The notes under the pieces are model-generated. The model was given only the letters and a program-made list of their open reading frames with translations. It did no database searches and was not told the DNA's origin. DNA of 5,839 nt, from assembly GCA_003557545.1 (NCBI GenBank), contig PWOD01000043.1, forward strand, positions 1 through 5,839, in the 5' to 3' direction. Each line of letters opens with the position of its first letter. The first letter of the stretch is position 1. Source of the DNA: a bacterium. GTDB lineage: Bacteria; T1Sed10-126. The position numbers were made by a program, and so were the translations under genes. Below are positions 1 to 4,259 of the stretch, in pieces.

Positions 1-150
1 CTGCTGCTAAATATTCCGGACTATCTTGGCCGGGACCGCGGCTTTTTTATCCGCTATGAACTGCCGGTATGGGTTTCGGAAGCTTCCCCGCATCAAAAGA
101 ATTTCGATCTGAGACATCTTTTGGGTCTGGGAGCACACTTCCGGTTTTAA
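1..150 (+). CDS. Outer-membrane beta-barrel protein, C-terminal end (partial)
   Basis: Frame 1 is open from the first base to a TAA at 148-150 and gives 49 residues; the start lies outside the window. The tail alternates hydrophobic and polar residues typical of barrel strands (GFFIRYELPVWV, then LRHLLGLGAHFRF) and ends in phenylalanine, the usual C-terminal signal recognised by the BAM machinery in outer-membrane proteins. The two strands are joined by a polar loop (SEASPHQKN). The exact family cannot be told from so short a piece. Its stop codon lies inside a 13-bp tandem duplication. The gene runs in the same direction as the nfo remnant that follows 66 bp later. The barrel assignment rests on strand pattern and terminal Phe only. 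Confidence 0.6.
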   Translation: MLLNIPDYLGRDRGFFIRYELPVWVSEASPHQKNFDLRHLLGLGAHFRF

Positions 151-170
151 TGTCCGGTTTTAATGTCCGG
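141..170. repeat. 13-bp tandem repeat over the stop codon
   Basis: The unit ccggttttaatgt occurs at 141-153 and 154-166 without mismatch, and a third partial copy begins with ccgg at 167. The first copy contains the last two codons and the stop of the outer-membrane protein, so the duplication leaves that protein's end unchanged. A further short direct repeat follows: ggatggcc at 178-185 and again at 199-206. The stretch looks like the product of replication slippage. Confidence 0.75.
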
Positions 171-216
171 CTTTCAGGGATGGCCTATTCTTTCTTCAGG
201 ATGGCCGGTTTGATTT

Positions 217-429
217 GTGTTATCAGAAATGCCGCAATCAGACAGGCAAATCCGGCATGCCCATATCGGCGAAGGGAAGATTGGCACAGCAGGATTTGCC
301 TGTCTGATCAACGACACTCGCTGGCAAAAAACAGCCCTGATCCTCGAAACGCCGGTCGACGACGGCGACTGGAAAGCAAGCTACAGTAAAAACCTTTCCA
401 CTCTCCGTAAACTGCTCGACAAGGGCTGA
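217..429 (+). pseudogene. nfo: Endonuclease IV (nfo) remnant, C-terminal fragment only
   Basis: An open frame of 70 codons starts at a GTG and ends at TGA 427-429. From residue 13 onward it aligns without gaps to the C-terminus of endonuclease IV, the zinc-dependent AP endonuclease of base excision repair. It shows RHAHIGEGKIG, then NDTRW, then LILETP, then a closing helix LSTLRKLLDKG. By alignment with E. coli Nfo, the zinc ligands His231 and Glu261 are kept, but Asp229 is replaced by Ile. The first ~228 residues of the ~280-residue TIM barrel, holding the other zinc ligands (His69, His109, Glu145, Asp179, His182, His216), are absent; the upstream DNA is the end of another gene. No convincing ribosome binding site precedes the GTG. 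It cannot fold as a nuclease and is best read as a relic. The typical terminator after it survives. A short functional peptide is possible but unlikely. Confidence 0.8.
237..308. repeat. 20-bp inverted repeat at the nfo breakpoint
   Basis: The arm at 237-256 (atcagacaggcaaatccggc) is the reverse complement of the arm at 289-308 (gcaggatttgcctgtctgat) in 19 of 20 positions; the only mismatch is at 254/291. The loop is 32 nt. The right arm lies inside codons that align to endonuclease IV (AGFACLI), whereas the left arm occupies the place where family homology stops. The left arm therefore looks like an inverted copy of the right arm. As RNA the pair would make a strong long-stem hairpin. Confidence 0.85.
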
Positions 430-468
430 AGCTGACCGGGTAAATTTCTTACCTGGCTTCGGTTTTTT
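427..468 (+). terminator. Intrinsic terminator after the nfo remnant
   Basis: Bases 436-443 (ccgggtaa) pair with 449-456 (ttacctgg) around a 5-nt loop, with one G-T pair. An outer stem is possible between 427-432 (tgaagc) and 456-461 (gcttcg) if a few bases bulge. Six T residues follow at 463-468. The T-run is on the + strand side only, so it terminates rightward transcription. It begins within the stop codon of the remnant and extends into the 3' end of the converging molybdopterin subunit gene. Confidence 0.7.
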
Positions 469-2791
469 CCAGCTCGGCCAGCAGTTTGTCCGGTTTGAAG
501 GGACCCTCTTTTATTCTAATCCCAACAGCATCGAAAATTGCATTTCCGATGGCAGGCAGCGGACCATTGATTCCTATTTCAGAAACTGATTTGGCACCAT
601 AGGGCCCGGTCTCCTCATAGGTTGGAACGAGGATACATTTCAACTCCGGCATATCCGGCATTTTGTAGATGTTATAACTATCGAAACTGGCATTCAACAT
701 CTTCCCGCGGCTACTGAACTGATATTCCTCTGTCAGGGCAAAGCTCAACCCATTAACGGTCGCACCCTCACACTGCCCTTCAGCCAGCCGGGGATGAATC
801 GCTGTCCCACAATCAGTCGCGTTAACATACTGTATAAGCTCCACTTTACCGGTCTCAGTATCAACCTCAACTTCAGCAAAATGGGCCGAGAAAGGTGGAG
901 GTGATTTATGTGAGATACTGGAATCATGGGCCGCTATCTGATGCTGATTGGATTCGTATAATGAATAGGTGGCTATCTCTTCATAACTCACTTCATTACC
1001 CGAAGAATCAACCACTTTTTTAGCGCCAAGACTAACATCTTCCAGCTCGACTTCCAGCATTTCCGCACCAACTTTAAGAATCTGCTGCTTAACCTTACCC
1101 GCACACTTATCTACCGCCTTACCACTGAGGTAGGTCGTGCTGGAGGCATAAGCCCCAACATCGAAGGGGGTCAGGTCGGTGTCAGAAGAATACGGGATAA
1201 TATCCTCCGTCGGTACATTGAGAGTTTCAGCAGCTATCTGACTCAAAACTGTGTCACTACCAGTGCCCAGATCGGTGGCCCCCATTAGCAGATTAAAGCT
1301 GCCATCCTCGTTCATCTTAATCGACGCTGCGGCCATATCGATCTCAGGAATCGAACTACCCTGCATCAACGTACAGATACCAAATCCTCGCCGTTTTGAA
1401 CCACTCGAGAGGGAGCGGCGCTCTTCCCGTGTATCCCAGCCAAAAGCCTCTTTTCCCTGCTCCAGACACTGGGGCAGACCACAGGATTCAATTGTCTGCT
1501 CAACCCCCTCCTTACCCTCACCCAGAGCGGCAAAAACCGGGGATGTCTCACCATTCTTAATATGATTAATCTCCCGCAGTTTTACCGGATCGATATCTAA
1601 CCGGTGGGCGATCTCATCCAGGGCGGATTCAACCGCGAAATAGGTCTGAGTCGCACCATAACCCCGGTAGGCACCACCAACCGGAAGATTGGTATAAACA
1701 ACTTTACCATTAAATTTAACAGCTTTCGCCGTGTTGTACAGTGGTAGCACCTTACTTCCACTGTTACAGACAACGGTCAGAGCATGACCGCCATAGGCGC
1801 CTGTATTCATTAGAACATCAAGATTAATCGCCCTGATTGTTCCATCCGAATCCGCCCCAATCGTTACATTAATAATCTGGGGATGACGGGTCCGGGAGGA
1901 TACAAACTCCTCCTCACGGGTCATCAAAAACTTCACCGGACGACCGGTTTTCATAGCCATGGCGGCCACAATATCTTCAACCAGTACCTCCTGCTTGGCA
2001 CCAAATCCTCCACCTATCCGGGGTTTAATAACCCGGATCTTCTTCTCCGGTAGTTCCAGACGTTGTGCTACAATCCGCCGAACATGGAACGGTACCTGGG
2101 TACTGGTCCGAATAACAACCCGTCCCCGGGAATCGATATAAGATATACAGACATGTGGTTCAACCGGACAATGCTGTGCATAATGACTTTCATACTCATC
2201 CTCAACAATAATGTCAGACTTGGCAAACTCTTCCTCAAGATCACCAAAACTGAACTCAACCGCTGAAGCAAGATTTCTTTCAGGCTCATATGGTATTGGA
2301 ATGATCACCTTACAGTCATCTTCATCATGGATAACCGGCGCTCCTTCATCGGTAGCTTTACGGGGATCCAGGACCGGTTCCAGAACTTCGTACTCAACCT
2401 TAATTTTTTGGGCTGCTTCGCGGGCCAGCTCCGGCGTCTCAGCGGCAATTGCTGCAACCCTATCTCCCACATAACGGACTTTATTGTCCAGTGTATGACT
2501 ATCATAGGGAGATGGTTCGGGATAACCCTGTCCGGCGGTCGTATGGGGAACCCTGGGAAGATCAGCATGGGTCAATACAGCTGCTACTCCCTCCATTGCC
2601 TCAGCTTCTGAACTGTCAATACTGAGAATCCTGGCGTGAGCGTGGGGGCTCCGCAGTACCTTTAAATACAGCTGGTTCTGCATATCATAATCTTCAACAA
2701 ATTTGTCCTTACCACAGGCCAGAGCAAGTCCGTCAATCTTTTGAACCGACTTACCCACCTGAGCAAAATTAGCTGTTTTTTGCTCGGACAT
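449..2791 (-). CDS. Xanthine dehydrogenase family protein, molybdopterin-binding subunit
   Basis: This is the catalytic large subunit of a molybdenum hydroxylase, 780 residues and full length for the family. The N-terminal part (about 15-140) is the a/b hammerhead domain (VGKSVQKIDG, YVGDRVAAIAAET). The Mo-pterin domains follow: PRIGGGFGAK at 257-266, GAYRGYGATQ at 373-382, DLGTGSDT at 507-514, GAYASSTTYLSG at 546-557, DCGTAIHP at 660-667 and GAKSVSEIG at 732-740. Glu738 corresponds to the catalytic base (bovine Glu1261) and Arg376 to Arg880. Gln267 stands where bovine xanthine oxidase has Glu802, so the substrate need not be xanthine; other N-heterocycles or aldehydes are possible. No signal peptide is seen, so it is cytoplasmic. 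ATG at 2789-2791 overlaps the preceding stop (TGATG), with GAGAGGTGG upstream as ribosome binding site. Last gene of the three-gene operon. The family is secure, the substrate is not. Confidence 0.95.
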   Translation of the reverse strand: MSEQKTANFAQVGKSVQKIDGLALACGKDKFVEDYDMQNQLYLKVLRSPHAHARILSIDSSEAEAMEGVAAVLTHADLPRVPHTTAGQGYPEPSPYDSHTLDNKVRYVGDRVAAIAAETPELAREAAQKIKVEYEVLEPVLDPRKATDEGAPVIHDEDDCKVIIPIPYEPERNLASAVEFSFGDLEEEFAKSDIIVEDEYESHYAQHCPVEPHVCISYIDSRGRVVIRTSTQVPFHVRRIVAQRLELPEKKIRVIKPRIGGGFGAKQEVLVEDIVAAMAMKTGRPVKFLMTREEEFVSSRTRHPQIINVTIGADSDGTIRAINLDVLMNTGAYGGHALTVVCNSGSKVLPLYNTAKAVKFNGKVVYTNLPVGGAYRGYGATQTYFAVESALDEIAHRLDIDPVKLREINHIKNGETSPVFAALGEGKEGVEQTIESCGLPQCLEQGKEAFGWDTREERRSLSSGSKRRGFGICTLMQGSSIPEIDMAAASIKMNEDGSFNLLMGATDLGTGSDTVLSQIAAETLNVPTEDIIPYSSDTDLTPFDVGAYASSTTYLSGKAVDKCAGKVKQQILKVGAEMLEVELEDVSLGAKKVVDSSGNEVSYEEIATYSLYESNQHQIAAHDSSISHKSPPPFSAHFAEVEVDTETGKVELIQYVNATDCGTAIHPRLAEGQCEGATVNGLSFALTEEYQFSSRGKMLNASFDSYNIYKMPDMPELKCILVPTYEETGPYGAKSVSEIGINGPLPAIGNAIFDAVGIRIKEGPFKPDKLLAELEKTEAR

Positions 2792-3258
2792 CAGATACCA
2801 CCTCTCATTTTTTGAGCCGCACTTTGAACCGCTTCAATCTGTTTTACGTAACCGGTACATCGACAGTAATTACCATCGAGGCCACGTTTGATTTCATCTT
2901 CGGTTGGATCGGGATGGGTTTCCAGAAGGGATTTTGAAGAAAGGATCATTCCCGGTATACAGAAACCACACTGCACAGCACCTTTGTCAACAAATGACTG
3001 CTGTAATGGATGTGGATCGTTCACAGTACCCATACCTTCTATCGTGGTAATTTCAGCACCATCAGCCTGGGCAGCAAATTTGATACAGGACAGTATCGGC
3101 TGACCATCAAGCAGAACTGTACAACTCCCACAATGACCTTCATCACAACCCTTTTTAACACCTTGATAACCAGCACTTCGCAGCAAATCGATAAGCCGGG
3201 TAGAAGGATCCACCTCAAACTTTTTGCTGTCACCATTAATCGTCAACTTAATCTCCAT
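2791..3258 (-). CDS. (2Fe-2S)-binding subunit of molybdenum hydroxylase
   Basis: This is the small electron-transfer subunit of the xanthine dehydrogenase family, 155 residues, normal length. The N-terminal ferredoxin-like domain carries Cys38, Cys43, Cys46 and Cys58 (GCDEGHCGSC, then C12 residues on) for one [2Fe-2S] cluster. The C-terminal helical domain carries Cys97, Cys100, Cys132 and Cys134 (QCGFC, NYCRCTGY) for the second, which lies next to the molybdopterin. All eight ligands are present. It passes electrons from the Mo centre to the FAD subunit. The start ATG (3256-3258) has a GGGGG purine run 7 nt upstream, held in the loop of a small hairpin. It ends one base into the molybdopterin subunit gene, which indicates translational coupling. 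Separate FAD, FeS and Mo genes match the bacterial three-subunit architecture rather than the fused eukaryotic one. Confidence 0.96.
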   Translation of the reverse strand: MEIKLTINGDSKKFEVDPSTRLIDLLRSAGYQGVKKGCDEGHCGSCTVLLDGQPILSCIKFAAQADGAEITTIEGMGTVNDPHPLQQSFVDKGAVQCGFCIPGMILSSKSLLETHPDPTEDEIKRGLDGNYCRCTGYVKQIEAVQSAAQKMRGGI

Positions 3259-3260
3259 AC

Positions 3261-3276
3261 TATGACCCCCGTCATA
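3261..3276 (-). promoter_or_regulatory. Ribosome binding site in a hairpin loop
   Basis: On the coding strand the bases just before the FeS-subunit start read tatgac-gggg-gtcata-gt-ATG. The six-base arms are perfectly complementary and the four G residues, with the next G, form the likely Shine-Dalgarno element 7-8 nt from the start codon. The element is thus displayed in the loop of a short stem. The dyad is seen directly; any effect on translation is inferred. Confidence 0.45.
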
Positions 3277-3344
3277 TTAATAAACTAGGATATAAAACAC
3301 AATTTTAGTTGTTAATAAATTTCTACTAATCCTACCGGTATCCG

Positions 3345-4187
3345 CTACTCAGCTATCTGTAACAGATTCCGTTTAACAAGCTTTTCAATTAACTTTGATT
3401 TATAACTGGCGCTGCCCCAGACATTATCAGTCGTCTTAACCTCTTCACGGGCAAGTTTTCCTGCTTTGACCGCCAGTTCCTGCGAGAATTTTTGGCCTTC
3501 CAGGGCCTCTTCAGCCGCTGTACAGCGGGTTGGAAAAGGTGATGCGGAACCAATTGCAATCCTTGGATTTGTCACTATACCATCATTCAGCTCAGCCAGT
3601 ACTGTTACTGTAACCGTTGCGTAAGCATCAGATGTCATGGCAAATTTTTCATAATTTCCACGGTAATCAGCCAGCTTCTGATCCAGGTTAACCTGTTTAA
3701 TCAAACAACTTTTATCCAGCAAACGGGTCGGATGTTTACTAAAAAACTCCACCGCCGAATAGCTCTGCTCACCCTCCGGTCCAGAGACCACGATCTCCGC
3801 ATCAACTGCTAAAAATACCGGCGGAAGATCAGCCCAGACTCTCATCTGTGCCAGAGAACCACCAAGGGTAATCATGTTACGCAGAGGTGTTGTGCCGACA
3901 TTTGCCGCTGCTTCGGCCACGACTCCACCGGCGTACTGTTTCAGCAGGTCAGAGCTTTCCAGCTGCCGCATCGTCGCAACAGCGCCCAGAGCAAGTTGTT
4001 CGCCGGCCTCCTCAATATAGTCTAACTCCAGCCCGGTCAGATCTATCAAGCCATCTATTTGCTGACTGTCGGTCACACTAACACCGGTTCCACCGGCCAG
4101 CAGTTTCCGTTTGCCAGGCCGTTCAATCAGCAGTTCAACCGTCTCTTCAACTGTTGCTGGTTTTAAAAATTCTGATAGTTTTCTCAC
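3345..4187 (-). CDS. FAD-binding subunit of molybdenum hydroxylase (CoxM/XdhB type)
   Basis: This is the medium subunit of a xanthine dehydrogenase family enzyme, which holds FAD and hands electrons to the final acceptor. With the GTG start chosen here it has 280 residues, usual for the family. The N-terminal FAD-binding domain shows the SEFLKPATVEE opening, LAGGTG at 30-35 and RNMITLGGSLAQ at 103-114 followed by ADLPPVFLAVDAEI. The C-terminal CO dehydrogenase flavoprotein domain covers roughly 175-275. No insertion carrying an extra iron-sulfur cluster is seen. An in-frame ATG at 4224-4226 would add 13 residues (RHAEKNNKGEKT type, lysine-rich), but GTG at 4185-4187 has AAGGGTG 8 nt upstream and starts where family members normally start. 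First gene of the operon; 86 AT-rich bases separate it from the FeS gene. Confidence 0.92.
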   Translation of the reverse strand: MRKLSEFLKPATVEETVELLIERPGKRKLLAGGTGVSVTDSQQIDGLIDLTGLELDYIEEAGEQLALGAVATMRQLESSDLLKQYAGGVVAEAAANVGTTPLRNMITLGGSLAQMRVWADLPPVFLAVDAEIVVSGPEGEQSYSAVEFFSKHPTRLLDKSCLIKQVNLDQKLADYRGNYEKFAMTSDAYATVTVTVLAELNDGIVTNPRIAIGSASPFPTRCTAAEEALEGQKFSQELAVKAGKLAREEVKTTDNVWGSASYKSKLIEKLVKRNLLQIAE

Positions 4188-4195
4188 GGTTTTTT

Positions 4196-4202
4196 CACCC
4201 TT
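4196..4202 (-). promoter_or_regulatory. Ribosome binding site deciding the GTG start of the FAD subunit
   Basis: The coding strand reads AAGGGTG, then eight bases, then GTG at 4187. The competing ATG at 4226 has only a weak gagaac upstream. This spacing and strength favour the GTG. Confidence 0.6.
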
Positions 4203-4259
4203 GTTATTTTTTTCAGCATGCCTCATACAAAGTTCTCAATTAATATGCGTGTTACATTG

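Follow-up and report, generated by a model that had tools for sequence, protein, structure and literature searches.

In multiple displacement amplification, inverted joins are the main type of chimera, and more than 70% of the junctions carry 2–21 nt of complementarity (PMC1855051). Library preparation also yields inverted chimeric reads, for which the PDSM model describes chimeric molecules that carry inverted copies of nearby sequence and start from genomic inverted repeats or palindromes (PMC10908179). In short-range replicative template-switch mutations (for example PMC7954356, PMC8794818), a short piece of neighbouring sequence is copied in inverse and creates a hairpin, and the switch returns to the original locus.

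The stretch of DNA analysed here, hereafter the window, is 5,839 nucleotides long and makes up the whole of contig C156 in a draft genome of 239 contigs and 91.9% completeness. At the 3′ part of nfo, the endonuclease IV gene, it shares features with each of these systems. As in amplification chimeras, the window contains an inverted joining that appears to be primed by brief complementarity, 2 nt in this case, but the inverted piece is just 15 nt long and is followed by an apparent second switch to unrelated DNA. As in the PDSM model, an inverted copy of nearby sequence is present, whereas native nfo has no inverted repeat or palindrome here from which such a molecule could start. The short inverted copy and the hairpin that it creates also resemble the template-switch mutations, but the path in the window leads into unrelated DNA at a contig end as opposed to returning to the original locus.

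An inverted repeat at the edge of the nfo homology

A repeat search of the window confirmed the inverted 20-bp duplication reported in the initial annotation, with arms at 237–256 and 289–308 that are 95% complementary (19/20) and separated by a spacer of 32 nt. Within the arms, window 237–251 is the exact reverse complement of 294–308 (15 nt). The CC at 252–253 extends the inverted match beyond this block, base 254 breaks it, and on the other side the likeness ends left of 237. The right arm, on the + strand, is native nfo coding sequence, also found at 6352–6371 of a second contig of the same draft, C137. The left arm, on the same strand, is composite: the repeat search and the comparison of the two contigs at the junction assign 237–251 to sequence foreign to nfo and 252–256 to native nfo. 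Its proposed foreign character is borne out by its absence from the intact gene on C137.

The inverted repeat is not due to chance. Our sample of the same genome comprised 40 other contigs, 4 of them masked, and rarity was assessed on 38 unmasked contigs or parts of contigs that total 322 kb; these contained no further inverted repeat that matched at 19 or more of 20 positions across a spacer of 3–80 nt, and no comparable repeat arose in 20 first-order Markov simulations of equal length (322 kb). A search of the genome for further copies of the 20-mer, which had been suggested as a check, returned one copy only.

A dyad of this kind could have been kept as a functional RNA hairpin or a protein-binding site, as the initial annotation offered in the alternative, and the predicted RNA fold is very stable (−41 kcal/mol, z −5.6). 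However, this stability follows from the inverted copy itself, and native nfo without the left arm folds no better than shuffles (z −0.5). The dyad is absent from the intact gene on C137, its left arm is missing from the aligned nfo of relatives, and it occurs as a single copy in the genome. Rfam gave no match and the terminator-like sites of the region lie elsewhere, and we rejected a terminator or an Rfam-type hairpin. Overall, we give a function of the hairpin almost no credence.

An intact nfo across two contigs

C137 was found by searching the genome with window 150–480. Its last 81 bases (6315–6395 of 6395) are identical to window 252–332, on the + strand. The two contigs are identical from window position 252 on and diverge leftward, which identifies window 1–251 as an alternative branch and not as the native left neighbour of the nfo 3′ part. 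The junction, between 251 and 252, falls inside codon 231 (GAC), which corresponds to Asp229 of E. coli, with base 252 as the third base of the codon; comparing C137 with the window thus places it where the initial annotation had located it by residue. At this point C137 reads ...AAACTGGA followed by CCGGCATG, and the window reads ...GGCAAAT followed by the same CCGGCATG, with a CC/GG microhomology at the joint and the CC at 252–253 shared. Both features by which we recognize a template switch, a nearby inverted copy and short complementarity at the joint, are present at the window junction, and the earlier description of the left arm as a templated inverted insertion with microhomology is a good one, the arm being a 15-nt exact inverse copy plus CC.

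Together, the two contigs encode a complete enzyme. The 3′ part of nfo with its stop codon (427–429) occupies window 252–429 on the + strand, and C137 joined to window 333–429 yields a complete nfo of 289 residues. The joined protein scores 244.7 bits against the endonuclease IV model TIGR00587 and so passes the curated cutoff of 129.65, whereas the window’s own 70-amino-acid frame reaches merely 40.5 bits. Aligned to E. coli 1qtw, the joined protein shows matching H, E and D residues, including VDRH/LDRH, at what we take to be the metal-site ligand positions of endonuclease IV, among them the Asp of the DRH motif. C137 and the window joined therefore form a full-length member of the family with its metal-site residues, whereas the window by itself contributes no more than the final 58 codons and one base, the last, of the codon before them, fused to foreign sequence. 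In the window alone, homology to endonuclease IV begins at the inner end of the left arm, as first noted: the alignment runs from Arg-His on and the preceding Asp is replaced, giving IRH where endonuclease IV has DRH.

These results bear directly on the initial view that nfo had been broken in this genome. A pseudogene reading needs there to be no intact missing part, yet C137 5623–6393 supplies nfo codons 1–257 in the reading frame of the window, the codon for the Asp229 equivalent among them, and the contig ends in the same 81 bases, which leaves the breakage of nfo unsupported. The related proposal that the inverted piece had replaced Asp229 correctly puts the start of the foreign piece in that codon, yet the native path retains the Asp. 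A search of the assembly revealed no second nfo 3′ end. Most likely, the native sequence follows C137 up to its end, the 81 bases in common included, and goes on at window 333.

Comparison with close relatives covered two genomes of the phylum, the present one (G000) and G001, which belong to the same family. G001, the sole same-family genome compared, has the gene order thiO–ilvD–hsp20–nfo, the same as on C137, and its nfo is intact. The left arm is absent from the G001 nfo and from the nfo of the other aligned relatives. Downstream, G001 has dapB-like genes and no xdh genes after nfo, so the adjacency of nfo and xdh is not confirmable from this genome; two observations, the reading frame and the 81-base overlap, suggest it. 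The xdh-like genes of the window (449–4226, − strand) form a three-subunit molybdenum hydroxylase operon, with XdhA/XdhC/XdhB-like or glyceraldehyde dehydrogenase subunits, all of which score under the curated equivalog cutoffs; the substrate is uncertain.

The joined piece and its origin

The sequence to the left of the inverted copy, window 1–236, has a GC content of 48.3%, which matches that of the genome, and contains two convergent reading-frame ends. On the + strand, a frame with an open 5′ end (1–150 in the list of open reading frames) supplies the last 49 codons of a gene, with a stop at 148–150; judging from its terminal ...HFRF, it is perhaps the C-terminus of an outer-membrane protein. 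A 13-base tandem duplication of TCCGGTTTTAATG (140–165) lies across the stop of this frame. On the − strand, a putative membrane-protein C-terminus (186–256, stop at 186–188), which translates as AGFACLIAAFLITQIKPAILKKE, spans the left arm. Neither short frame end matched Pfam or NCBIfam, and no significant homologue of either was found in the sets searched. Window 1–251 has no second copy in its own genome and no exact 27-mer match in viral contigs, and its source was found neither in the own genome nor in G001 or distant relatives.

Our preferred explanation, which we hold to be probable, is that the first 251 bases of the window are wrongly joined to the 3′ part of an intact nfo by way of a chimeric DNA molecule made in vitro. 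Such a molecule would have formed when the DNA was amplified or made into a library. An nfo minus-strand copy with ...GG at its end would have folded back on its own CC, the folded strand would have copied 15 nt of nfo inversely (window 237–251 from 294–308), and a template switch to unrelated DNA would then have given window 1–236. The assembler would have kept this short branch on the nfo–xdh contig and stopped C137 at the branch point. A stretch of 251 bases separates the join from the end of its contig, and C137 runs on for 81 bases after the branch before it ends. A misjoin by the assembler at the repeat itself is unlikely: no exact inverted match exceeds 17 nt, and such an event would leave a single copy, not two. 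What counts against the chimera is that the searches did not find a source for window 1–236, even though completeness of the genome reaches 91.9%.

Alternatively, the 15 matching nt may not have been copied at all but may belong to the minus-strand gene end itself. The left arm would then belong to an unrelated minus-strand gene that shares 17 bases with nfo by chance, and this likeness would have paired the strands, with the chimera forming nearby. The difference from the preferred explanation concerns only the origin of 15 nt (ATCAGACAGGCAAAT in the arm). Consistent with a native arm, the minus-strand frame crosses the arm with no stop and its translation resembles a membrane helix followed by a lysine-rich tail, and a rough calculation gives hundreds of pairs of loci with 17 bases in common in a genome of 2 Mb. 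However, when 5,000 random fusions of a genome piece with the nfo segment were made, none exceeded 11 inverted nt beside the joint, the longest match being 11 nt as opposed to 15 nt in the window. The searches returned no homologue of this gene end, and crossing where the bases are shared should yield a single copy instead of an inverted pair. We regard a native arm as improbable.

Odd contig ends in the draft and a possible real variant

Contig ends elsewhere in the draft are also unusual. Overlaps of exactly 111 bases (mid-contig) and 121 bases (end to end) were observed, a pattern that would resemble de Bruijn graph contigs at branch points, built with several k values. Bases 1–111 of C150 are found in the middle of C20, and the two contigs then diverge just behind a stop codon, forming a second branch point. 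The last 108 bases of C200 consist of two pieces of C144 (383–441 and 540–601) in changed order, at a tRNA gene-like place. No fold-back signature was found at the overlapping ends of C150/C20 and C200/C144, so the fold-back is particular to the window joint. At the far end of the window, no overlap was found. C137 itself begins with a 95% direct copy (1–253) of part of its own thiO (2192–2575), from which approximately 122 bases are missing; in thiO the missing stretch lies between the short similar words TCCGGATA and TCCGGGTA. This copy could have arisen by duplication followed by decay, could reflect variation between strains or could mark a further chimeric contig end.

The position of the join at a contig end, the odd other ends of the draft and the inverted chimeras described from multiple displacement amplification and library preparation favour an artefact, and a chimera of amplification, library preparation or assembly is the favoured reading. 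The same signature could also arise in the cell. A real and recent rearrangement by double template switch would have occurred in part of the population of this uncultured bacterium, a replicative switch joining another locus and breaking nfo in those cells while the rest kept it intact, and both forms would have been assembled together. A short inverted copy and a 2-nt microhomology fit replicative template switching equally well, the joined piece shares the GC content of the genome, and a mixture of strains may lie behind unusual contig ends, for example that of C137 with its 95% thiO copy. The join nevertheless lies at a contig end and extends no further, and the junction was not seen in any other genome searched. 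We consider a real structural variant unlikely, though less so than a native arm; if real, such a variant would amount to an ordinary rearrangement by template switching in a lineage of which little is known.

The apparent break in nfo is most likely not a real biological feature of this bacterium but a chimeric join in its draft assembly. As such, the window offers a clean example of a chimeric contig end that mimics the loss of a gene and carries a striking mutational scar, and such a chimera comes to light when the remaining contig ends of the assembly are searched.
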